Virus record (IMG/VR): IMGVR_UViG_3300028393_004369
Coordinates: 1 to 41,060 of that record
Length of the DNA: 41,060 nt
From: a virus
Direction: 5' to 3' (one strand)
Shown piece by piece: positions 2,700 through 34,231 of this stretch (position 1 is the stretch's first letter; the number at the start of each line of letters is the position of its first letter). The position numbers and the translations under genes are program-made. A model generated the notes under the pieces. That model searched no databases and had not been told where the DNA came from. It worked only from the letters and a program-made list of their open reading frames with translations.

Positions 2700-3052
2700 A
2701 GGCAGAAGAATTTGACGAGAAGTTTGATAGTGGAGAAGATATATCAGGTTGTTTGAATATCGGGGAAAATATGACTTTGCCATACGAAAGAACTAGATCA
2801 ATTGCACAGACAAGAAAATTCTTGGTTGATCTTGCATTTAACTTAAAGAGAATTCCAAAAGAAGTACGAGAAATGGCGAAGGGATGTTTGCGACATTACC
2901 CTGATGTTTCACATATTCAAGAAATGTGCGAAAAATGTCCAGAGATAATGGATATGCAAACTACCAATTCTATGATAGAATGTTTTCGTTGGACTGGTGT
3001 TGATGATGCTGTTAAATTAGGCAAGAAAATCAAGAAAGAAAGAAAGAAGTAA
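2696..3052 (+). CDS. Hypothetical protein (118 aa)
   Basis: A soluble protein with a conserved-looking helical core (RTRSIAQTRKFLVDLAF, then IPKEVREMAKGCLRHYPD) and three cysteines in its second half (CLRHYPD...MCEKCPEIMD). The paired CEKC could bind a metal, but a second pair is missing. It overlaps its upstream neighbour by ATGA and is separated by a single base from the homing endonuclease. Similar small proteins with a RTRSIAQTR-like segment occur in phages, but I cannot name the family. Confidence 0.65.
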   Translation: MKAEEFDEKFDSGEDISGCLNIGENMTLPYERTRSIAQTRKFLVDLAFNLKRIPKEVREMAKGCLRHYPDVSHIQEMCEKCPEIMDMQTTNSMIECFRWTGVDDAVKLGKKIKKERKK

Positions 3053-3053
3053 T

Positions 3054-3611
3054 ATGCCTAGGAACTCCAAACCTAAAGAATTGAACTGGGATTTTTTGAG
3101 CCAATACTTTGAAGTAGATCCTTCAAGTGTTACTGGATTGACATGGAAAGAGAGAGAAGAAAGTGTTGGTCGTTGGAATGAACAATATGCTGGAGGACAG
3201 GCTGGAACCGTATTTACAGATGAAGACGGAAGAAAATATTGCAGTGTAATGTTAACTGTCGATGGAGTTGAAAGAAGAATTTCAACTTGGAGGGCTGTTT
3301 ACATGATTTCCAAAAAAACAAATATAAAAAAAGGTTTGACCATTGGGCATATTGATGGAAATAATTTGAACAATGATATATCTAATTTGAAAGTTTGCCC
3401 TCATGTTGAAAATTTAGTTAATGCAAAGATTCATTGCAAAAACACATCTGGAGTTAAGGGTGTTCATTGGGATCATCGTAAGCAGAGATGGATTGCACAG
3501 ATAACAGTAAAATCTAAAAAAATAAAACTTGGAGCATTTTTGACAAAACAGGAAGCAATTGATGCTAGGTTAGAAGCTGAGAAAAAATACCGAAGTCAAT
3601 ACGCCAGATAA
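3054..3611 (+). CDS. HNH homing endonuclease with AP2 DNA-binding domain
   Basis: An HNH_3-type nuclease core lies at about residues 75-125: a His-rich strand and the pattern GHIDGNNLNNDISNLKVC, where the His and the Asn/Asp residues form the metal-binding, hydrolytic site. It is followed by NTSGVKGVHWDHRKQRWIAQ and LGAFLTKQEAIDARLEAEKK, a textbook AP2/ERF-type DNA-binding domain (about 125-180). This HNH plus AP2 order is typical of free-standing phage homing endonucleases that spread by cutting a cognate site. The protein appears complete (185 aa). It sits in a run of small genes one base after its neighbour, so the likely homing site is the allele lacking this insertion between 2696-3052 and 3635. 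Confidence 0.9.
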   Translation: MPRNSKPKELNWDFLSQYFEVDPSSVTGLTWKEREESVGRWNEQYAGGQAGTVFTDEDGRKYCSVMLTVDGVERRISTWRAVYMISKKTNIKKGLTIGHIDGNNLNNDISNLKVCPHVENLVNAKIHCKNTSGVKGVHWDHRKQRWIAQITVKSKKIKLGAFLTKQEAIDARLEAEKKYRSQYAR

Positions 3612-20708: not shown

Positions 20709-22781
20709 ATGAACTCTTTAAGCAAGTTTATAGGTAGATTCGATCAAAGTAAATTTAAAATTCTAAATAACGAAATGTCGTTTTCTGAATATGTAGATTT
20801 GTGTTACACTAATCCAAAGTTACTTAGAAATTCTTGGCAAATTATTTTTGATATGGTGATAGAAAAAGGATTCTACCCAGTAGAAGAATATCGTAAGACA
20901 TATAAACATTACAATTTTTTCGACAACCCAGAATATCCCATTATTGGCTTGACACCAACTAAAGATTCTCTTGTTAAATTCATCAAGGGTGCTGCTGGTC
21001 ATTTTGGAACAGAAAAGAGAATCTTGCTTCTTCATGGTCCTGTCGGAAGCTCAAAATCAACTCTTTGCAGACTGTTTAAAAGAGAAATGGAGCGTTATTC
21101 CACCACCGATGCTGGGGCTTGGTATAGCTTTAAATGGATTAATCTTCCAACAGGTGTCGATGGTATTTACTTAAAGGATGAAGATGAATGCCCAATGCAT
21201 GAACAGCCATTAAAGCTACTGCCACCAGAAATACGAAAGCCAATCATGGAAGAGCTTAATCGTGCTTTGTTAGAATCAGTTCCAGAAAGTGAAAGATCTG
21301 AAATTTATGAATTGCGATGCGAAGGAGAATTAGACCCAAGATGTAGATTTTTCATGAATGCATTGTTGAAGAAATATGATGGTGATTTGGAAAAGATTCT
21401 TGAAAAACATATTCGTGTTATTCGTAAGACATTTAGTGAATCTGATCGTTGTGGTATTGCAACATTTCAACCTAAAGATGAAAAAAATCAAGACAGCACT
21501 GAACTTACTGGCGATATAAACTTTGGTAGAATTGGAACATTCGGTGCCGATTCTGATCCTAGAGCTTTTAATTTTGACGGGGAATTTTGTGTGGGAAACC
21601 GGGGAATGATCGAATTTATAGAGGCTTTGAAGCTAGATCAAGCATTCTTATACGATCTCTTAGGAGCATCACAAGAACAAAGCATCAAACCAAAGAAATT
21701 TAGTCAAGTCGGTATCGATGAGGCTATATTTACACACACCAATAATCCAGAATACGAAAAACTTAGAAGCAATCAATATATGGAAGCACTTAGAGATAGA
21801 ACTGTAAAGATTGATGTTCCTTATACCTTGCGTTGGGAAGAAGAACTAAAGATTCTTGAAAAAGATTATGGGCCAACAAAAGTAAAGCAACATATTGCTC
21901 CACATACTTTAGAAGTAGCTGCATTGTGGGCAATTTTGACAAGACTAAATGACGACAAAGATGGAAAGATATCTTTGGTCGAAAAAGCAGAATTGTATGA
22001 TGGTAAGCTTTTGCCAGGTTGGACAGATGAACAGGTCAAAGAGCTAAAAGACAGATATCCAGATGAAGGCATGACTAGAGGTGTTTCTGTTCGATATATT
22101 CAAGACAAACTTTCTAATTGTCTTGCGAACAATCATGATTATGTAAATATGTTCATGGTTTTAAATGAACTAAGAGATGGCTTAGAAGGTAGTTCTTTGC
22201 TAAATAATAAAGATGATGTTGGTCGATATATTACTTGTGTTGATTTGGTGGTTAAAAAATTGACTGAAATTTTGAAAGCAGAAGTTCAAAAGGCCTTGGT
22301 TGGAGATGAAGATGCGGTAATTCGATTATGTGCCAACTATATCGATAATATCATGGCCTATATCAATAAGTCTAAAATCAAAGATCCAATTACTGGACAA
22401 GATAGAAAGCCAGACGAAAGGCTTATGAGGGCTGTTGAATCCAAAATAGATATCCCAGAGCAAGGTGCTGATGATTTCCGCAGACAAATCGCTGCATTCA
22501 TTGGAGATCTTGCAATCAAGCATAAGACATTCCGATGGGATTCTAATTCTAAATTGAAAAAAGCATTGGAAGCTAAATTGTTTGAAGATGTTAAAGACAC
22601 TATTAAACTTTCTGCTTTGAATGTCTCTGGTGCCACAGTAGTTGATAAAGACATACAAGAAAAGATCGATGCAATAAAAACTCGTTTGATAAAACAATAC
22701 GGGTACAATGAAAGATCGGCAACAGATGTTCTTGATTTTGTAGGAAGCATATTTGCTAGAGGCGATTTGGCAGAAGAATAA
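20709..22781 (+). CDS. prkA: PrkA-family AAA/serine protein kinase (YeaG-like)
   Basis: The PrkA AAA module is unmistakable: LLLHGPVGSSKSTLCRLFK (Walker A, about 106-124), GDINFGRIGTFGADSDPRAFNFDGEFCVGNRGMIEF (Walker B/sensor region), LYDLLGASQEQSIKPKKFSQVGIDEAIFTHTN and YMEALRDRTVKIDVPYTLRW. Residues from about 400 on form the PrkA C-terminal domain. At 690 aa it is close to bacterial homologs (about 640). In bacteria PrkA (YeaG) is a Ser kinase/ATPase whose gene lies with yeaH and ycgB (spoVR). Here the same order follows a promoter at 20638. Presence in a phage-like element is unusual. Host regulation via phosphorylation is possible; targets are unknown. Confidence 0.96.
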   Translation: MNSLSKFIGRFDQSKFKILNNEMSFSEYVDLCYTNPKLLRNSWQIIFDMVIEKGFYPVEEYRKTYKHYNFFDNPEYPIIGLTPTKDSLVKFIKGAAGHFGTEKRILLLHGPVGSSKSTLCRLFKREMERYSTTDAGAWYSFKWINLPTGVDGIYLKDEDECPMHEQPLKLLPPEIRKPIMEELNRALLESVPESERSEIYELRCEGELDPRCRFFMNALLKKYDGDLEKILEKHIRVIRKTFSESDRCGIATFQPKDEKNQDSTELTGDINFGRIGTFGADSDPRAFNFDGEFCVGNRGMIEFIEALKLDQAFLYDLLGASQEQSIKPKKFSQVGIDEAIFTHTNNPEYEKLRSNQYMEALRDRTVKIDVPYTLRWEEELKILEKDYGPTKVKQHIAPHTLEVAALWAILTRLNDDKDGKISLVEKAELYDGKLLPGWTDEQVKELKDRYPDEGMTRGVSVRYIQDKLSNCLANNHDYVNMFMVLNELRDGLEGSSLLNNKDDVGRYITCVDLVVKKLTEILKAEVQKALVGDEDAVIRLCANYIDNIMAYINKSKIKDPITGQDRKPDERLMRAVESKIDIPEQGADDFRRQIAAFIGDLAIKHKTFRWDSNSKLKKALEAKLFEDVKDTIKLSALNVSGATVVDKDIQEKIDAIKTRLIKQYGYNERSATDVLDFVGSIFARGDLAEE

Positions 22782-22817
22782 TATGTCAAATAATTTTTGT
22801 AAAGAGGTTCTTAAAAT

Positions 22818-24038
22818 ATGTGTCCTAGAAGAATTGAAGAAGATCACAAAGATTTTATTGATGTTGTTTCTGGCAAGCTACGCAAAGCTTTAAAGAAATT
22901 TATCAAAAGTGGCCAAATTGTTAAGTCTAGAGGTAAGCGTGGTAAAATATCGATATCCATTCCAAAAATCGATATTCCACAAATCCTTTATGGCGATAAT
23001 GGAAATGGAACAGGAAGAGGAAAAGGCAAAGATGGCGATGTGATCGAAAAGGGCAAAAAGGGTAAGGGTAATGGCAATGGTGCTGGTCAAGACGAAAGTG
23101 AAGGAATCACTATAAGTCTTGACCTTGAAGAAGTTTTAAAATTCATGCAGGGAGAATTAGAACTTCCAAATCTAAAGCCAAAAGTAAGCGACACATTTGA
23201 TGAAGTAAAAATAAAATATAACAACATATCTTTGGTAGGCCCAGAATCACTAAGGCATAACAGAAGAACATTTTTAGAAGCTCTAAAAAGACAAGCAGCA
23301 GATGGAACTATAAATGATTTGGAAATAGTACCAGGCTGCAAAGATCCAATTAAGGCAATCAAGCCAATAAAAAGAGATAAGAGATATAGGCAATACAAGG
23401 AAATTAAAGTTCCTTCAAGTAATGCTTTGATCATATATGCTAGAGATGGATCTGGAAGTATGGATCAGCAAAAGTGCGAAATAGTTTCTGATATGGCTTG
23501 GTGGATTGATGTTTGGATTAGAAGATTTTACAAAAGAGTAGATAGACTTTTTGTTTGGCATGATTCTTCTGCTATGGAAGTAGATGAAGAAAAATTTTAT
23601 AATTACAGATTTGGTGGTGGCACTACTTGTAGCTCCGCTTTGAAATTCATTTCTAAGCAATTTGAAAATCGATATCCTCCAGAAAAATGGAATATATATG
23701 TATTTTATTTTACCGATGGCGACAATTGGGAAGAAGATAATCAAGTTTTTATAAACACATTAAAAGAATCGTTTGGAGAAAGAGTCGTAAATCTTGTTGG
23801 AATAACACAAATACTTCCTTGGAATTACGCAAACTCAATAAAAAATGTAGTTGACCAAGCTTTAGAAAAGGGAGATCTTAATAGAGAAAATATTAAGACC
23901 ACTGAAATAAATGCAGAAGATGGTGCTGTTTTAACAGAAGAAAAAAGAAATCAACAAATATTAGAAGCTATTCAAAAATTAATGGGTTCAGATAAATCAA
24001 AAGCTAAATTGAATACGGAGTCCGATAATGTCTTCTAA
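22818..24038 (+). CDS. DUF444 protein (YeaH/YhbH-like), von Willebrand A-type domain
   Basis: Homology to YeaH/YhbH is clear: ELPNLKPK, YKEIKVPSSNALIIYARDGSGSMDQQK (MIDAS motif D-x-S-x-S), EVDEEKFYNYRFGGGTTCSSALKFI, YPPEKWNIYVFYFTDGDNWEEDN. The N-terminal 110 residues are basic, then Gly/Lys/Asn-rich (GNGTGRGKGKDG) as in the family. The DVSGSM of E. coli reads DGSGSM here. In bacteria this protein accompanies PrkA and SpoVR; in spore formers YhbH is linked to sporulation. It overlaps the spoVR start by 11 nt. A 36-codon frame (22783) overlaps its start and is probably not a gene. Confidence 0.95.
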   Translation: MCPRRIEEDHKDFIDVVSGKLRKALKKFIKSGQIVKSRGKRGKISISIPKIDIPQILYGDNGNGTGRGKGKDGDVIEKGKKGKGNGNGAGQDESEGITISLDLEEVLKFMQGELELPNLKPKVSDTFDEVKIKYNNISLVGPESLRHNRRTFLEALKRQAADGTINDLEIVPGCKDPIKAIKPIKRDKRYRQYKEIKVPSSNALIIYARDGSGSMDQQKCEIVSDMAWWIDVWIRRFYKRVDRLFVWHDSSAMEVDEEKFYNYRFGGGTTCSSALKFISKQFENRYPPEKWNIYVFYFTDGDNWEEDNQVFINTLKESFGERVVNLVGITQILPWNYANSIKNVVDQALEKGDLNRENIKTTEINAEDGAVLTEEKRNQQILEAIQKLMGSDKSKAKLNTESDNVF

Positions 24039-26928
24039 TAAGTTCATGCATGGCTCTTCTCTTCTTATTGGCGATAACACTATCCCTGGTGTTCAACTTC
24101 CAAAACAATTAAAAGAACATGCTCAAATAATTTTGAATGTTTGTAGAGATTGGGGCTTGGATTTTTATCCAACTGTAGTGCAACTTCTTACCTACGATGA
24201 AATTTCCGAAGTAGCAGCTTATGGTGGTTTTCCAGTACGATATCCACATTGGTCATTTGGCATGCAATATGAAGAATTGCAGCGTGGATATGAAAATCAA
24301 ATGCATAAGATATATGAAATGGTAATCAATTGCTGTGAACTTAATGCTCCAGTTTTGACTAAGCGTGGTACAATTATAGCTGGAGATGTGAAGGTGGGCG
24401 ATCAAGTTATTGTTGGTAATGAAACTAGGAATGTTGTTGCGATAAAGAGACAAAACGCTTCTAAAACTAAGAAAATTTGTTTGAAAGATGGCCAAACATT
24501 AGTATGTACGCCAAATCACAAATGGCGTGTTCTTTCTAATAATGGTTTAATCTGGAAAAAAGCATCGGATGTTGTATCTGGTGATATTTTTGTAGGAACT
24601 GATTCATATGAAAGTAATTGGGATGCACCAAGAATTGATTGGTCATCCGAACAAGTTTTTGAATCAACAAGGCCCAACATTAGGCATTGTATTAAAGAAA
24701 TTTATCCACCGAATCATATTACGATAGAATTGGCGGAACTTCTTGGAATTTTGGTTGGAGATGGGTCGATAGGAGTAAAGTCTGCTGAAAATATGTTAAC
24801 CGTTGCTGTTGGTAAAAAACACAGGACATATGCAGAACATGTTGTAGATTTATTTAAAAAGGTATTTGGAGTTGTTGCAGAGATTTACGAAAAACCAAAT
24901 TGTTTCAATGTAACATTATGCTCAAAAAACGCAGTTGATTTTGTTAATTCGATTGGTTTAAAGAAAGGTAAAACATTTAAGGAAAAAATAATTCCAGATA
25001 TTATTTGGAAGTCTCCTCCTGCCTATAGATGTGCTTTTATTCGTGGTTTGTTCGATACTGATGGCTATGTAGCTAACCATGTTGGTTTTAGTTGTTATAA
25101 TAAGAAATTGGCAGATGATGTTCAGATTATGCTTTCGGAAATGGGAATTCTTTCTAATTTAAAAACATTGAAAAATGGCAAGGGTAAAAAAGGTGATCAA
25201 AAATATATTAATGTTGTTAAAATTAAGGGAATTTGGGCTGAAAATAAATTTTACAATAGAATAGGTTTTGTGCTTAACTATAAGCAAGAATTACTTAAAA
25301 AATTACTTGATAGAAAATTTTGTCGTAGTTCTGGAATGGAGTTGCCTTACATTCAACGACAATTGATTATGTGGGCAAAAAGTGTAGGAATCACAACATA
25401 TAACAACCATAGTCTTGGTTATTCAATTAAAATGTTCGAGAAACAAAAAGTTGGGATTAATTCTTTTTCTTCATTTGTACAAAGAGCAGAAAATCAAGGA
25501 TTAAGTGTTCCAAATGAAATTAAAGATATTATTTCAAATCCTTTATTTGTTGTTGAGCATGTTGTTGATGGAGATGAGATCGAAACTGTTGATATTGCAT
25601 TGGATCATGATTCTCATGATTTTATTGCATATGGATTGATTACCCATAATACATCACCTTGCTACATATATTGCTTAGATAGTAATACTCTATTGGATCA
25701 TTTGACAGTTATTGCTCATGCTACTGGTCATAATGATTTCTTTAAAAACAATATTCATTTTTCTGCCACTGATACAAACATGTTGAATAACATGGCGAAT
25801 CATGCAAGTCGTATAAGAAAATATATGGCTAGATGGGGTAAAGAAAAGGTTACTGAATTTCTTGATTATTTGCTTCGCATCGACAATCTAATTGATGGTG
25901 CATCAGCTTGGCATCAAAAAGTAATTAAAGATAAAAACATTATTGATAAAAAAAATTATCGTTTTCCAAAGCGACTAAAAGTTGGCAATGATAGACTTTA
26001 TATGGATTCCTATATCAATACCAAAGATTTCAAAGACAGAGAGAATGAAAAGGTTAAAGATAAAGATTTGGCAGAAGAACTTGGATTTTTTATTGAACCA
26101 GTTAAAGATGTTTTTGGATTCTTGCGTGATAATGCTCCACTGAAGCCATGGCAGCAAGATATCATGTCTATGATCTATGAGGAATCAATTTATTTTTTCC
26201 CACAGAGACAAACTAAGGTATTAAACGAGGGCTGGGCTTCTATGACCGACCATGTCATTATGGCGGAACAGGGTTATGTTTCATTAGGCCAGAAAACACA
26301 TGATGATGGAATCATAGAATATGCTGCACATAAGATGGGTGTTCTTGGAGGAAAATATAGCACTAATCCATATAAGCTAGGCTATAATCTTCTTTCAGAC
26401 ATAAGAAAAAGATGGGATAAAGGTCAATTTGGAACTGAATGGGATGATTGCACAAATTCAACCAAAAAAGATAATTGGGATACAAATGTAAAATTAGGAA
26501 AAGAAAAAATATTTGAAGTTAGAAAGTATTACGATGATCTGACTTTGATACATGAATTTTTTACTGAGGATTTTTGCAGAGAGCAAGAATATTTTGAATA
26601 TAAAAAATATCCAAGTGGTGATACAATCTTGGAAAGTCACGAATATAAAAAAATAAAAAAACTCCTTATGGCAAGACATGTTAATGGTGGATTGCCAGAT
26701 ATTAGATTGACCGAGCCAAATTATCGTGGTAAAGGTTATCTTATGTTGGAGCATAATTATGAGGGAAGAACACTATACGAGCCTTATGTTCGTGATGTTC
26801 TTTGTTCTTTAAGGTTTATTTGGCAAAACGATGTGTTTCTATCGACTAAAGGTCATGATGGGAGCGAAATCGTTTTTGAGTGTTTTGACAATGATCCTTT
26901 AAATGTAAGAATACGAGCAAAAAGGTAA
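24028..26928 (+). CDS. spoVR: SpoVR-family protein interrupted by an intein (966 aa precursor)
   Basis: The flanks are SpoVR/YcgB: N-extein 1-101 (WGLDFYPTVVQLLTYDEISEVAAYGGFPVRYPHWSFGM... KIYEMVIN) and C-extein 542-966 (TSPCYIYCLDSNT... HATGHNDFFKNN... LNEGWASMTDHVIM...). Joined they give about 526 aa, the usual length (E. coli YcgB is 510). The insert is at MVIN|TSPCY, one of the most conserved segments of SpoVR, where bacteria read VINTNP-x-Y. Cys102 and the terminal His-Asn541 mark the intein. The start overlaps DUF444; GGAG lies 8 bases upstream. SpoVR's biochemical role remains poorly known; it acts with PrkA and DUF444 genetically. Confidence 0.96.
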   Translation: MSSNKFMHGSSLLIGDNTIPGVQLPKQLKEHAQIILNVCRDWGLDFYPTVVQLLTYDEISEVAAYGGFPVRYPHWSFGMQYEELQRGYENQMHKIYEMVINCCELNAPVLTKRGTIIAGDVKVGDQVIVGNETRNVVAIKRQNASKTKKICLKDGQTLVCTPNHKWRVLSNNGLIWKKASDVVSGDIFVGTDSYESNWDAPRIDWSSEQVFESTRPNIRHCIKEIYPPNHITIELAELLGILVGDGSIGVKSAENMLTVAVGKKHRTYAEHVVDLFKKVFGVVAEIYEKPNCFNVTLCSKNAVDFVNSIGLKKGKTFKEKIIPDIIWKSPPAYRCAFIRGLFDTDGYVANHVGFSCYNKKLADDVQIMLSEMGILSNLKTLKNGKGKKGDQKYINVVKIKGIWAENKFYNRIGFVLNYKQELLKKLLDRKFCRSSGMELPYIQRQLIMWAKSVGITTYNNHSLGYSIKMFEKQKVGINSFSSFVQRAENQGLSVPNEIKDIISNPLFVVEHVVDGDEIETVDIALDHDSHDFIAYGLITHNTSPCYIYCLDSNTLLDHLTVIAHATGHNDFFKNNIHFSATDTNMLNNMANHASRIRKYMARWGKEKVTEFLDYLLRIDNLIDGASAWHQKVIKDKNIIDKKNYRFPKRLKVGNDRLYMDSYINTKDFKDRENEKVKDKDLAEELGFFIEPVKDVFGFLRDNAPLKPWQQDIMSMIYEESIYFFPQRQTKVLNEGWASMTDHVIMAEQGYVSLGQKTHDDGIIEYAAHKMGVLGGKYSTNPYKLGYNLLSDIRKRWDKGQFGTEWDDCTNSTKKDNWDTNVKLGKEKIFEVRKYYDDLTLIHEFFTEDFCREQEYFEYKKYPSGDTILESHEYKKIKKLLMARHVNGGLPDIRLTEPNYRGKGYLMLEHNYEGRTLYEPYVRDVLCSLRFIWQNDVFLSTKGHDGSEIVFECFDNDPLNVRIRAKR
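24331..25650 (+). mobile_element. Intein with LAGLIDADG homing endonuclease inside spoVR (440 aa)
   Basis: Splicing block A: Cys102 followed by CELNAPVLTKRGTIIAGDVK and VGDQV. Block B: LVCTPNHKWRVL (T-x-x-H). Two LAGLIDADG motifs: LAELLGILVGDGSI and CAFIRGLFDTDGYV, both with the acidic metal-binding residue, so the endonuclease is probably active. Blocks F and G: ETVDIALDHDSHDFIAYGLITHN, ending His-Asn, followed by Thr542 as the +1 nucleophile. All residues needed for splicing are present. An extra Cys103 lies next to the N-terminal Cys. The coordinates give 1320 nt, in frame with the host gene. Its homing target would be an intein-less spoVR at MVIN|TSP. Confidence 0.95.
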
Positions 26929-27633: not shown

Positions 27634-29020
27634 ATGACATTTATGAAAGGAGTTCCAATGAAGGTGGAGATTGTCGGTTTCGAACATCTCCACCTTCATT
27701 AGTTATTCCGATTTCTCCGTTTTAGATGGGTTTGGTACTTGTGAGGAATATTCACTCAGAGCTACCCAAATCAATCAAAACTTTTTAACTATTAGTGATC
27801 ATGGTATGTTGGGTGCTGTTCCAAGACAAATAAAAGCTTGTGAGAAAATTTGTGATAAGTTTGGTAAAAACAAACTTTCTCCTATATTCGCAGCAGAAAT
27901 ATATGTTAATAGGTTGCAGCCATCAAGTGATTCTTTGCAAGACATGCAAAATTTCTCTAAAAACTTAAACGAAATAGAATTAAAGGAATTGAGAGCTAGT
28001 CCACACCTTCTTGCGATTGCACATAGCGAAATAGGTTATAAAAATCTAGTAAGACTTACATCTTGGGGATGGACAAAAGGATTTTATAGAAAGCCAAGAG
28101 TAAATTACGAACAACTTGAGAAACATAAAGAAGGTTTGTTTTTTACTAGTTGTTGTTATAACAGCGAAGTTGGTAGAGCATTTGATTCTGGTGGTGAAGA
28201 AGCTGCATTTCAAATGATCGAAAGATACATTGAGATGTTTGGTAGAGATAATTATTTCCTTGAAATTATGCTTTTAGATTTTGTCAAACAAAAGCCTTAT
28301 GATGCATTTATCATCAAGGCTTATGAAAAGTATAAATTAAAAATAATTCTTACAAATGATTGTCATTATTGTCGAAAGGAAGATAGTCACTTTCAAAGAC
28401 TTATGTTGATGGTACAGACAAATAGAACAATTCAAGAAATTCAAAAGGCAATGAAAGAAGATGCCATGAAAGACTTTTTTGAATTGCAAGATGCCAACTT
28501 ATGGATGAAGTCAGAGGAAGAGCTTAACGAAAAATGGGCTAAAGATTATAGTGATGTTATTCCATATGAAATTTTTTGTGAAGCTAAAAAGAATACAGTA
28601 GAGATTTGCAGAATGGCAAAAGGAGTTGAACTTGATAGAAGTTTGAAATTACCAATTTTGCCTGATTGTGACGAAAAACTTAAAGATTTAGTCATACAAG
28701 GATTCAAACAGAGAAACTTGCCTAAGACCAAAGAATATAAAGACAGAATAATTGAAGAATTGAGCCTTATAACTCGAAAAGGATTTAGTACATATTTTCT
28801 TATTCAAAAAATGATGACTGATGAGGCAAGAAAGTGGTGCAAAGAGAATATAGGTGGTGATGGAACTCAAGCTGTAGGGCCAGGCAGGGGAAGTGCTTGT
28901 GGTTCTTTAATCTGCTATTGTCTTGGAATTACAGATGTTGATCCAGTATTTGAAGGTCTTTTGTTTAGTCGATTTATGTCTGAGGCTAGAGGTGGTAGAT
29001 CTATTTGTTTTGATTTGTAA
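27634..29020 (+). CDS. dnaE: DNA polymerase III alpha, N-terminal half (PHP and start of polymerase domain), with apparent +1 frameshift
   Basis: Frame 1 from ATG 27634 or 27658 gives MKVEIVGFEHLHLH then UAG (27700-27702). Skipping one base (T27700) continues in the next frame as SYSDFSVLDGFGTCEEY, restoring the PHP N-terminus HLHxHS-x-Y-S-x-LDG. The rest follows DnaE: ISDHGMLGAVPRQIKACEK, KIILTNDCHYCRKEDSHFQ, VGPGRGSACGSLICYCLGI-TDVDP, ending LLFSRFMSEARGGRSICFDL. The protein stops just before the PDxDxD catalytic motif, which is in the gene at 38344. About 453 residues if read through the shift from 27658. Each candidate ATG has a Shine-Dalgarno (AAAGGA, AAGGAG). Confidence 0.88.
27657..27700 (+). 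promoter_or_regulatory. Perfect 15-bp inverted repeat from the dnaE-N start codon to the frameshift site
   Basis: AATGAAGGTGGAGAT (27657-27671) and ATCTCCACCTTCATT (27686-27700) pair perfectly around a 14-base loop. The 5' arm contains the ATG at 27658; the 3' arm ends on T27700, the first base of the UAG and the base that must be skipped. Folded RNA would hide the start codon and sit at the shift site. The same inverted sequence could also be an assembly or amplification artefact. Confidence 0.75.
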
Positions 29021-29888: not shown

Positions 29889-29916
29889 AATAAAACATAA
29901 AGAATGATGTTTTATT
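29889..29916 (-). terminator. AT-rich hairpin at the end of the Cys-rich gene
   Basis: AATAAAACAT (29889-29898) and ATGTTTTATT (29907-29916) form a 10-bp stem that includes the minus-strand stop codon. G+C is very low, so as a terminator it would be weak. Confidence 0.35.
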
Positions 29917-32900
29917 ATAGTGGAACGCAAAAACCATTAACACATTGCTTAGATTCACCACAATAATTATCGCAATTGCCACAATTATTGTTGTCTGTTA
30001 GTCGATGTGCCTTACTTAGACATTGACCAGTACTACAACATTGATATCCGTCTTCGGTTGCTGCACCTTCGGGTGGGCAAACATTTTCTCCCCAACAATT
30101 TAAACAGGTATCAACATAACTCAACGGTTTGCAAAAACCATCGCAACACTTGTAATTACTAGGGCAACAAATGTCTCGGCAACATGTAACACCTTCGTCA
30201 CAACAAACAGTTCCACAACCTACACCGTTATTATCGCAACACTTACCATTGCTGCATCTTTGGGTTTGTGTACATGCATTTGGGCAATCTCCACATTGCC
30301 ACCTAATGCATGTTCCGCTACAGCATTTTTCATCGGAGTAACAAGATGGATTGCAATTTGCACACTTGCCATTATTGCAAAATTCCCCAGCAGCACAACA
30401 CACTCCTTCACAACAAACATTACCCTCTAGACAACATGTTTTATTATCACAACAGTAATTCTTACGACCACTAAGATCACCACCACCGCAGCACCTGCCA
30501 TTACAACAAATATCACCAGACTTGCAACATTCGCCCATCGGTGGAGTTGGGTTATCAGGCGAAGGAGTTATCTGACTCTGACTGGAACAACAGGTTTGTC
30601 CATCAGCACATGCTGGGTCACAATCTACACATTGACCATTAGGACCACATAATTGCCCAGAAGGACAGCATGTCTTATGGCCTTCTGCACCGCAGCAAAC
30701 TGCGCAGCATTCTAGATTACAACATACATCAAGTCCAGTACAAGGAGGAGTACAACCAGTACATACACCAGCAACACATTTTTCACCTGCTGCTGTGTCA
30801 CATTTTTTATTGCAAAGGCCACAATTGTCATTATCGGTTTGTGTTTCTTTACACGCTCCAGCACAACATTTTCCACCTGTACAAGCAGCACCGCAACCAG
30901 TACAATCTGTATCGGTTCCAAGAGTGGTACACCCAGTAGTACAACAAACTTGACCAGCGGTACATACTACTCCGCAACCCTTGCAGTTTGATGTTGTTGT
31001 AATATCTGTACAAACTTTATTGCAACACTTCTGTGTTCCTGTACAAGCATCACCACAACCAGAACAATTTGTGTCGGTTCCAACGGCAGTACACACCTCA
31101 TCGCAACAATCTTGACCTATAGAACAACACACTTCTTGACCGGGCAAACCGCAACAAACTATTTCAGCAGAAGCACATGCATTTGGGCAATCGCCACATT
31201 TCCACCTAACACATGTTCCAGAACAGCATGTCTCGTCTGGATAGCATACTGGACTGCATGTTGCACAACTTCCGTTTTCGCAAAATTCACCAGCAGCACA
31301 ACAAGTATTACCACAGCATATTCTTCCAGCATCGCAACATGATCCTCCACAGCAGGTTTGTCCAGCAGTACAGGGTGGCTCGCATGTGGCACATACTCCA
31401 TCAACACATGATTGCCCCGATGGACAACATGCGTCAGCACAACAAATTGCACAGCATGTCGTTCCGCCTTCGCAGCATGATTCGCCAGATGCACATGGAG
31501 GTGTACATCCTGTGCAAGCTCCATTTTTGCAAGTTTCACCAGCAGGACAAGGGGGTGCATCACAACTACCGCAATGGGCGTTGTTGGTTTGCATGTCTAC
31601 ACATGTAGATGAACAACAGGTCAATCCATTGCCACAAGGAGGATCGCAACTGCTTCCATCTCCACTACAACCAGCAGCACAGTTTTCTGCTCCGATGTAC
31701 TCTCCGATTTTTGCTTGTGTTTCAGGGTTAAACGATGCTTTTGGTATACAATAAGTTGCCATATTTTGTCCTTCTATGTTATTTACACAAAAATATATAT
31801 CTCCAACACACGCTAATTTGTCGTCTACGCAAGAAATTCTATCATCTGCACAATATGTGTAATCTGGTTCGTGTCCGCAAGTTCCATAAAATGCAATTCC
31901 AGCTTCTTCGTGTAGAACCCAAGCCCCTCCTGCGGCTTCAAAATAACAAGATCCATCACAACTTACCGTGTTGCCAACGCATGAAGCCACGAAAGCGACA
32001 TCATGTGGCCCAGGTTGTGGTGGCATTCCTTGTTCATATCCCTGACATTCGCAGTGTGGTTCAGCACAGTTTCCCAAGAAACATTTCGGAACTTTAAATG
32101 TGTCATTGGGAGGTTCTTGACATACTCGTCCGCAAAAACCGCAGTTTTCTGGATCAGTTTTTAGGTTCTTGCACTTGCCATTGCAGCACTGCCACAGATT
32201 GGTCTGGTTGATCATTTGCGGACACTCTATTCCGCAATCACCACAGTTAAACATGGTATTCAAATCTAATACGCAAGATCCATTGCAGCACTTGCCAGCA
32301 CAAGGTATGTTGCAACCACCACAGTTGTTTTCGTCAGACAATATGTCGATGCACTGATTGTTGCAGCAAGCAGTTCCAGCCTCTAGACATGGGGGAAAGC
32401 ATGGAACGCAAACACGATCAATGCACTGATCTGAGTTAGGACATGTAAATCCGCATTGTCCACAGTTGTTTCTGTCGGTATTTTCGTTTACGCAAATTCC
32501 ATTGCAGCAGGTTTCCCCAATGCCAGTCTGGCACTCGTGTGCGCATGACCCGCAATTATAATTGTCTGTGTTACGATTTTTGCAAAAACCATTACAACAG
32601 ACTTCGGGAAATGTACATACATTTGTACAATTTCCGCAATTCAAATCTCCTGTAAGTGTGTTTACGCAGTTTCCATTACAACAAGTGTCTCCAGCAGCAG
32701 ATCCGCAATCTCTTCCGCAATCTCCGCAATTACGAACATCTGTAAGTATGTTTTTACAAACATGATTGCAGCATTTTTGATTAGCACCACAATCAGGAAT
32801 ACAGTTTTTACAGGGAGAAGAAACTTTTTCAAGATCGGCTGTACCCGGTCGAAATGGCTCGTTTATTGGACATTTGCAGCTTGGGCATGGCGTTTCGTTC

Positions 32901-34231
32901 CAAAATGGAGTACAGTCAAAACTGTAAGTCGTTCCTGAACAGGCTGGCTCTGGAGGATCTACTGGTACTGGACAACCAACCCCACCCCTGTCGCAATTGC
33001 TTATCATTTCCCATGTTCCTCCTGCCCAACCTGTAACTGGATCTAGAACAGGGAAAATTGTACATGGATACTCTGCTCCAAAATCCATGTGATGACATGG
33101 GCAGTCGAAAGTAGATCCAAAGCATGGTCCGTTAGTAACTGCAATCCAAAAATCGCCACAACTGCCCATGTAAATTCCCGATGATGAAAATGTGCTACAG
33201 TTATTTGGATATTGACAGGCAGCAATTTCCTCGTAATGACCTGTGCATGTAGGAAACATCGGATCGCCTTGAGGAGGTCCAGTTGGAACCCATCTTATGG
33301 TCGCATTTCCTGAGCATATTTTATACCCATTTGGGTTATTGTACATGAATGTGCATTTTGGTTGATTCCATGTGTATGAGCATTCTTCAGCCGTACAAGG
33401 GTCCATGCAAACACCATCCTTGCAAACCTCTCCTACAACGCAACTTCTGTCGCAATCGCCACAGTTCAAGCGATCATCGCCAACTACATTTTTGCACACA
33501 CCGGAACAGCATATGAATCCGACAGGACAAACATTCGGACATGATCCGCAATGACTTTCATCTAGTTGTGTATTGACGCAATCACCAGAACAGCATGTTT
33601 CTTCGGCTGCACAAGGATGGTCGCATCTTCCGCAATGATCATGATTGTTTGTTACATCAATGCAAGTAAGTGTGTCGCCAACGAAACAACAATTCGCTGT
33701 TGTACAGCAATTACCGTTGCAGCAAGTTGGTGTTGCTTCGGGGCAAACATTTCCGCAATGATCGCAATTATTGCTGTCTTCATATATGTTTTTGCATTCG
33801 CCAGCACAGCAGTCTTGATCTGGACCGCAAGCTATGGGGCAACCTCCACAATGGTCATGATTCGTTTGTGTATCTACGCAAACATTGTCGCAGCATGTCT
33901 GTGATGGTTCGCATGCAACACCACCACAATTACAGCAGGTTCCAGTGCATTCAACTTGAACGATACCTTCGCAGCACCCGACCATGGTTGCTGGTGGGCT
34001 TCCATTATAATCTGGCCAACATGGAGGGGGGTTTGTCGGTAAATAGGGAGGTGGAGAAGATGAGCATCCCGCTGGGCAAGGAACAGTCAGAACCCATTGG
34101 ACATTGTCAAGTTGTCCTCCACACCTTCTTGGGTCCCAGACTTCAGCTTCGTAAGAGGCAGAGTATCCACAAACTTTATCGGCAAGTGCGAAAACTATAT
34201 TCCATTTCTCCACCATTTTTTCGTCTGTCAT
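29915..34231 (-). CDS. Giant cysteine-repeat protein (1438 aa), Stig1/myxobacterial-type Cys modules
   Basis: Well over 15 modules of the form CCNGxC-x-N-x-x-TDxxNCGxCGxxC cover most of the chain (for example ENCGFCGRVC, RNNCGQCGFTC, NDNCGLCNKKC, DNNNCGNCDNYC). Modules of this kind (like plant Stig1 or the Cys repeats of myxobacterial surface proteins) are disulfide-rich. At about residues 280-430 a domain with fewer cysteines (CTFMYNNPNGYKICSGNATI; CHHMDFGAEYPC) interrupts them. The first 45 residues (KWNIVFALADKVCGYSASYEA) are not a signal peptide. The gene appears richer in G+C than its neighbours, which may indicate separate origin. A virion-exposed fibre or adhesin role is plausible; no proof. 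It overlaps the CapK gene by 4 nt. Confidence 0.85.
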   Translation of the reverse strand: MTDEKMVEKWNIVFALADKVCGYSASYEAEVWDPRRCGGQLDNVQWVLTVPCPAGCSSSPPPYLPTNPPPCWPDYNGSPPATMVGCCEGIVQVECTGTCCNCGGVACEPSQTCCDNVCVDTQTNHDHCGGCPIACGPDQDCCAGECKNIYEDSNNCDHCGNVCPEATPTCCNGNCCTTANCCFVGDTLTCIDVTNNHDHCGRCDHPCAAEETCCSGDCVNTQLDESHCGSCPNVCPVGFICCSGVCKNVVGDDRLNCGDCDRSCVVGEVCKDGVCMDPCTAEECSYTWNQPKCTFMYNNPNGYKICSGNATIRWVPTGPPQGDPMFPTCTGHYEEIAACQYPNNCSTFSSSGIYMGSCGDFWIAVTNGPCFGSTFDCPCHHMDFGAEYPCTIFPVLDPVTGWAGGTWEMISNCDRGGVGCPVPVDPPEPACSGTTYSFDCTPFWNETPCPSCKCPINEPFRPGTADLEKVSSPCKNCIPDCGANQKCCNHVCKNILTDVRNCGDCGRDCGSAAGDTCCNGNCVNTLTGDLNCGNCTNVCTFPEVCCNGFCKNRNTDNYNCGSCAHECQTGIGETCCNGICVNENTDRNNCGQCGFTCPNSDQCIDRVCVPCFPPCLEAGTACCNNQCIDILSDENNCGGCNIPCAGKCCNGSCVLDLNTMFNCGDCGIECPQMINQTNLWQCCNGKCKNLKTDPENCGFCGRVCQEPPNDTFKVPKCFLGNCAEPHCECQGYEQGMPPQPGPHDVAFVASCVGNTVSCDGSCYFEAAGGAWVLHEEAGIAFYGTCGHEPDYTYCADDRISCVDDKLACVGDIYFCVNNIEGQNMATYCIPKASFNPETQAKIGEYIGAENCAAGCSGDGSSCDPPCGNGLTCCSSTCVDMQTNNAHCGSCDAPPCPAGETCKNGACTGCTPPCASGESCCEGGTTCCAICCADACCPSGQSCVDGVCATCEPPCTAGQTCCGGSCCDAGRICCGNTCCAAGEFCENGSCATCSPVCYPDETCCSGTCVRWKCGDCPNACASAEIVCCGLPGQEVCCSIGQDCCDEVCTAVGTDTNCSGCGDACTGTQKCCNKVCTDITTTSNCKGCGVVCTAGQVCCTTGCTTLGTDTDCTGCGAACTGGKCCAGACKETQTDNDNCGLCNKKCDTAAGEKCVAGVCTGCTPPCTGLDVCCNLECCAVCCGAEGHKTCCPSGQLCGPNGQCVDCDPACADGQTCCSSQSQITPSPDNPTPPMGECCKSGDICCNGRCCGGGDLSGRKNYCCDNKTCCLEGNVCCEGVCCAAGEFCNNGKCANCNPSCYSDEKCCSGTCIRWQCGDCPNACTQTQRCSNGKCCDNNGVGCGTVCCDEGVTCCRDICCPSNYKCCDGFCKPLSYVDTCLNCWGENVCPPEGAATEDGYQCCSTGQCLSKAHRLTDNNNCGNCDNYCGESKQCVNGFCVPL

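Follow-up and report, generated by a model that had tools for sequence, protein, structure and literature searches.

The N-terminal gene of a naturally split DNA polymerase III alpha subunit (dnaE-N), located in the window (the whole 41,060-nt stretch of viral DNA analysed here, IMG/VR record IMGVR_UViG_3300028393_004369), is interrupted inside its PHP active-site motif and is probably read by programmed ribosomal bypassing, as part of a mobile, endonuclease-linked cassette that resembles T4 gene 60 and mobA but has a very short gap. We infer the hop itself from the layout of the site, the gap lengths among relatives, the hairpin behind the take-off codon, the constraint on both open reading frames and the pattern of codon re-pairing.

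The interrupted dnaE-N gene

The reading frame is arranged exactly as claimed in an earlier note on this DNA, with an ATG-initiated frame encoding HLHLH, a UAG at 27700-27702 and the polymerase continued in the next frame (Table 1; the ATG at 27658 is an alternative start of ORF1). After the gap, the frame resumes at TCC (Ser, 27707) and reads SDFSVLDGFGT..., and ORF2 encodes the PHP domain together with the beginning of the polymerase domain of the DNA polymerase III alpha subunit. The joined sequence HLHLHSYSDFSVLDG, which had been taken to match the family exactly, does not do so: intact homologs have HLHLH[ST]DFS.LDG, and this sequence is restored only when all seven nucleotides TAGTTAT (27700-27706) are left out, whereas skipping T27700 alone leaves a surplus Ser-Tyr.

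The gene ends before the catalytic core, and its C-terminus (..ARGGRSICFDL*, 28990-29020) falls at the polymerase active-site region. Locus L002, whose dnaE-N is a near-copy of the gene in the window, has in its 165-kb record a dnaE-C (finger-domain) gene with an open frame of 916 aa, located a few kb from dnaE-N. Thus, the polymerase is naturally split and it is the N-terminal gene that is interrupted. Since the relatives end at the same place with variable tails, the split of dnaE is common to the group; for the same reason, an intein or split intein at this end (..RSICFDL*) was considered and rejected. Both strands of the window were scanned for the combination of hairpin, stop and reopened frame, which yielded the dnaE-N site only; no convincing bypass site was found in 580 kb of neighbouring loci or elsewhere in the records of L002 and L070.

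Table 1. Features of the interrupted dnaE-N gene (positions in the window)
Feature	Position	Strand	Basis or remark
ORF1, MTFMKGVPMKVEIVGFEHLHLH followed by UAG	27634..27702	+	N-terminal 22 codons of DnaE-N, ending at the take-off codon
AAAGGAG, internal Shine-Dalgarno-like motif	27646..27652	+	Shortly before the hairpin; most class A relatives have it or a similar motif; putative function
Hairpin 5' arm, AATGAAGGTGGAGAT	27657..27671	+	15-bp inverted repeat; compensatory changes
Hairpin 3' arm, ATCTCCACCTTCATT	27686..27700	+	Encodes HLHLH, contains the take-off codon, ends on the stop codon
Proposed take-off codon CAU (His)	27697..27699	+	Comparison with intact homologs
Untranslated gap UAGUUAU, 7 nt, stop codon first	27700..27706	+	No counterpart in intact homologs; length 5-8 nt elsewhere in class A
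Proposed landing codon UAU	27704..27706	+	His tRNA pairing at codon positions 2 and 3
ORF2, SDFSVLDG..., rest of DnaE-N, 437 codons	27707..29020	+	PF02811, PF07733, phrog_405; purifying selection in relatives

Recurrence and forms of the interruption

Relatives of ORF2 were collected from IMG/VR (n = 53), more diverged ones were added by further scans, and the annotated set holds 69 distinct dnaE-N genes, of which 32 are interrupted and 37 intact. The alignment with related phages that had been proposed as a check showed that the interruption recurs in relatives, while the intact homologs, which read an unbroken GFEHLHLH[ST]DFSxLDG, supply the uninterrupted sequence. No similar DNA was found among named phages, and the nearest named record (LR756511) has an intact dnaE-N. 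Several independent assemblies (L002; L003, L004, L026, L027, and L047; L005 and L051) have nearly the same interruption, and dozens of diverged relatives are interrupted as well, which rules out a sequencing error.

All interruptions are confined to about 10 codons, and leaving out the insert yields the same protein junction in every case, although the gaps fall in different frames. In class A (n = 20, including the window), a CAY codon is followed by a gap of 5, 6, 7, or 8 nt that begins with UAG or UGA, and then by the resumed frame; the gap is 7 nt long in the window and in L003, L005, L008, L011, L029, and L041. Class B genes (L009, L015, L022, L095, L099, and L103) carry, behind HLHLH[ST]D, an insert of 40-47 nt that contains a strong hairpin. 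Class C genes (L037, L043, and L046) have UAACUA or UAACUU inserted in frame behind SVL and flanked by Leu codons, so that the hop in L046 would lead from CUU to CUU across UAA. A Neisseriaceae metagenome-assembled genome (L164) has an in-frame 6-nt UGACUA after HLHL, and group I introns occupy the same hotspot, at FSL^LDG, in L033 and L049. The stop codon stands straight after the take-off codon in class A, class C, L103, and L164, and is absent from this position in the other five class B genes (L009, L015, L022, L095, and L099). Gaps are in frame in L042, class C, L095, and L164.

A single dnaE-N gene, that of L070, carries two interruptions (3039-3110), a class A gap of 8 nt and a 46-nt gap with a hairpin; as these total 54 nt, the frame before the first is also the frame after the second. 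Two relatives with an interrupted dnaE-N encode a tmRNA (L033, 8703-9061; L094, 5692-6081). In the dnaE-N genes of L028, L048, L052, L153, and L164, ORF2 exceeds its usual length by about 380-420 codons (823-856 aa), the additional length probably representing inteins.

A hairpin behind the take-off codon

The inverted repeat that ends on the stop codon had been overlooked in the earlier note. In the window it was also detected as a longer pair with 90% complementarity, and none of 300 synonymous recodings of the same peptide folded equally well. Throughout class A, the inverted repeat measures 10-15 bp and its 3' arm consists of the HLHLH codons, ending at or beside the take-off codon. These hairpins reach z values of -3.6 to -8.2 against synonymous recoding, with at most two of 300 recodings as good, compared to a mean z of +0.3 for the intact homologs (n = 37) in the same test; no hairpin was found in the intact gene of L006, in which the peptide MKVEIVGFEHLHLH is identical. 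When 19 class A elements were aligned, 99% of 192 cells were paired (36-56% in slid controls), and four hairpin pairs were altered on both sides. These comparisons indicate that synonymous codon choice creates the class A hairpin and that compensatory changes maintain it. A covariance model scored class A elements at 48 bits or more and intact genes at 32 bits or less, but as the model was built from class A, this separation is only a consistency check.

Class B genes have upstream hairpins as well, in addition to the separate downstream hairpin inside the insert. For class C, a wider hairpin (CACCGTGAAATC / GATTTCTCGGTG) was seen by eye; its arms are set wider apart and extend beyond the 16-codon window of the recoding test, within which class C gave no significant result. 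At some loci, part of the gap could pair with sequence 5' of the hairpin, making the exact take-off structure uncertain.

Both reading frames show constraint. Across class A, pN/pS is 0.023 in the arm encoding HLHLH, 0.11 in the loop encoding VGFE, and 1.0 in the 5' arm, indicating that the peptide is kept where it is needed, while elsewhere base pairing is kept and the 5' arm changes its amino acids. Between interrupted genes, ORF2 has a pN/pS of about 0.08-0.26, that is, it is under purifying selection.

Re-pairing at the landing codon

The landing triplet was defined as the triplet before the resume codon and was thus set by homology alone. In 18 of 19 element types, at least two of its three positions can pair with the take-off tRNA, compared to 4.4 types expected from local sequence (P = 4e-11, an optimistic value since the element types are partly related by descent); the exception is L038, with pairing at one position only. 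In most class A genes the two codons differ (CAY to NAY). They are identical only in L046 and synonymous in L037, L041, L043, and L164.

Proposed mechanism and alternatives

Programmed bypassing fits the combined evidence of gap lengths in all frames, the stop codon, a hairpin that borders on the take-off codon, and the pattern of re-pairing. The ribosome would read 22 codons up to CAU, which brings UAG into the A site; its peptidyl-tRNA(His) would then release, the mRNA would shift by 7 nt, and re-pairing on UAU would allow translation to restart at UCC, giving ...GFEHLHLH-SDFSVLDGFGT... with a normal PHP active-site motif. The predicted junction peptide is HLHLHSDFSVLDG, as opposed to the HLHLHSYSDFS expected from a +1 shift. 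The hairpin, with the take-off codon in its 3' arm, may re-form behind the ribosome and pull the mRNA forward, and the AAAGGAG 5' of it may help to set the landing point.

A programmed +1 frameshift at CAU UAG, skipping one base to give HLHLH-SY-SDFS, was the mechanism originally put forward. It could equally join the other 7-nt gaps, but the 8-nt gaps would require a +2 or -1 shift, those of 5 nt another shift, and those of 6 nt none, which amounts to three mechanisms at one site. Moreover, the AUU reached by the slip is not paired by the His tRNA, as the earlier note had cautioned with regard to CAU, and the shift would leave two extra residues at a junction where no intact homolog carries any. 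Such a frameshift is unlikely; what stands of the original reading is a genuine and probably programmed recoding site rather than an error, while its +1 mechanism is contradicted by the gaps of 5, 6, and 8 nt in relatives, all of which a short bypass would accommodate. Removal of the gap from the mRNA, e.g. by a degenerate intron or by hairpin cleavage and ligation, appears still less probable. Group I introns with a conserved catalytic core do share the hotspot in L033 and L049, and class B inserts have strong hairpins of their own, yet the stop codon and the landing-codon pattern are features of translation, and a gap of 5-8 nt is much smaller than introns are known to be. The only Rfam match in the window is a tRNA, and no Rfam intron was found there.

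It is similarly improbable that ORF2 is translated alone via internal initiation or reinitiation, with ORF1 as a separate short or leader peptide. Although dnaE is already divided between two genes here, and an in-frame TTG precedes the gap in the window, at 27671, most interrupted genes lack a usable in-frame start for ORF2 from the gap to about +80 nt, and the product of ORF2 alone would be without the metal-binding HLHLH motif. Furthermore, GFEHLHLH is kept in ORF1, with a pN/pS of 0.02 in the HLHLH codons, and a leader peptide would not need such constraint, making this role of ORF1 unlikely. An out-of-frame insert with a stop codon in an essential-looking gene might also be taken for a pseudogene or an assembly error. 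This is highly improbable given that the layout is repeated in independent assemblies and many lineages, ORF2 is open for about 430 codons under purifying selection, and compensatory changes preserve the hairpin; sequencing error and pseudogene were rejected on these comparative data. For the in-frame gaps only (L042, class C, L095, and L164), simple stop readthrough would produce a full-length protein too.

Endonuclease association and mobility

An HNH-like endonuclease gene or its remnant lies directly upstream of dnaE-N in 14 of the 32 interrupted but only two of the 37 intact genes (L091 and L153), an association with p = 3e-4 in a statistic that ignores relatedness. Among 24 records searched in full, a set that does not include L091 and L153, the endonuclease was found in interrupted ones only. 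The upstream endonuclease carries zinc-finger repeats; in L070, another kind of zinc-finger protein matches a homing endonuclease. As a Pfam scan of the endonucleases matched no HNH model, the HNH assignment rests on PHROG matches and the conserved motif WHxDHIFPIKAF..NL.P....N..K; a fold search with an AlphaFold model gave no informative match. The endonuclease gene is absent from the window and from the 165-kb record of L002, and may have been lost from the former.

An ORF2 tree requires at least 20 changes of the interrupted state, whose placement is near random; the interruption is gained or lost rapidly. Between interrupted L041 and intact L012, identity is 95% over the 40 nt that directly follow the gap, 60% over the 40 nt that precede it, and about 40% farther upstream. 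However, since the upstream flanks differ between many of these phages, this contrast alone is no proof of element transfer. The insert in the window would be one form of a recurrent cassette with a free-standing HNH-like endonuclease gene beside dnaE-N; the endonuclease would cut uninterrupted dnaE-N, while the insert would shield its own copy, allowing the cassette to spread. The coupling of polymerase synthesis to release-factor level, which the earlier note had envisaged, found no support, and the scattered presence of the interruption together with the adjacent endonuclease genes instead suggests a tolerated mobile insertion.

Comparison with known systems

To our knowledge, efficient bypassing has been proven in phages for hardly any case besides T4 gene 60, and the essential signals of that gene are therefore hard to single out. 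In T4 gene 60, UAG follows the take-off codon, a 5' stem-loop aids sliding, and the gap is linked to a homing endonuclease (PMC11194080, PMC5009743, PMC2988022), namely the HNH endonuclease mobA (PMC2988022). Folding of the stem-loop behind the ribosome favours forward movement (PMC11194080, PMC5009743). The dnaE-N elements share the stop after the take-off codon, the 5' stem-loop behind the ribosome, and the restoration of a single protein when the gap is omitted, and they too lie in a replication gene with a free-standing HNH-type endonuclease nearby. In contrast, most of their gaps measure 5-8 nt instead of 50 nt, and the landing codon, identical to the take-off codon in T4, usually matches it at two of three positions (CAU and UAU in the window). 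The small A-site stem-loop that begins at the T4 take-off codon is unmatched, the dnaE-N take-off codon sitting in the 3' arm of the upstream hairpin, and unlike T4 with its KKYK nascent-peptide signal, the 22-codon ORF1 has no KKYK. Lys-Gly is frequent in class A ORF1, but coincides with AAAGGAG. The host gene also differs, being dnaE rather than a topoisomerase gene, and the elements recur in several forms and in many lineages. Given these differences in codon identity, A-site stem-loop, and nascent peptide, we propose that dnaE-N works like T4 bypassing and claim no homology to T4 gene 60.

Short bypassed inserts and non-identical take-off and landing codons are reminiscent of the byps of Magnusiomyces capitatus mitochondria, where many short inserts are bypassed and the two codons sometimes differ (PMC5009743). 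Unlike byps, the dnaE-N elements occur in phages with the standard code, at one hotspot, with a conserved upstream hairpin and linked endonuclease genes. Class C and L164, with similar codons flanking a stop, represent natural arrangements of the stop-hop type described in synthetic Escherichia coli constructs (Weiss et al. 1987, as cited in PMC5009743), from which they differ in being natural, conserved, and preceded by a hairpin. The +1 frameshifts of RF2 and antizyme likewise have a stop at the shift site, but dnaE-N offers no overlapping slip and its gaps vary from 5 to 8 nt. A possible, unproven case of bypassing lies beside an HNH gene in mycobacteriophage Corndog (PMC4351075). Among the open-access papers searched, we found no report of bypassing in a phage dnaE gene.

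Taken together, it seems fairly likely from these sequences that the dnaE-N elements constitute a second natural phage bypassing system that comprises three or more structural forms with very short gaps, is distributed over many lineages at one replicative-polymerase hotspot and spreads with an HNH-like endonuclease; in it, an upstream hairpin alone, without a long nascent-peptide signal, would drive an imperfectly re-paired short hop. The signals are minimal, consisting of a hairpin, a stop codon, and a few bases, and with some 30 natural variants to set against about 37 uninterrupted controls, the roles of re-pairing and of the upstream hairpin become open to direct tests. The elements also connect bypassing with homing endonucleases and group I introns, as alternative occupants of one site, and gene callers will miss or truncate such interrupted polymerases.

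Other features of the window

Genes for PrkA, a DUF444 (YeaH-like) protein, and SpoVR lie in a row at 20709-26928 (+), forming a bacterial sporulation/stress operon on a phage, and the SpoVR gene contains a LAGLIDADG intein. Finally, a 1438-aa protein encoded at 29915-34231 (-) has several STIG1-like stretches, which is unusual for a phage.
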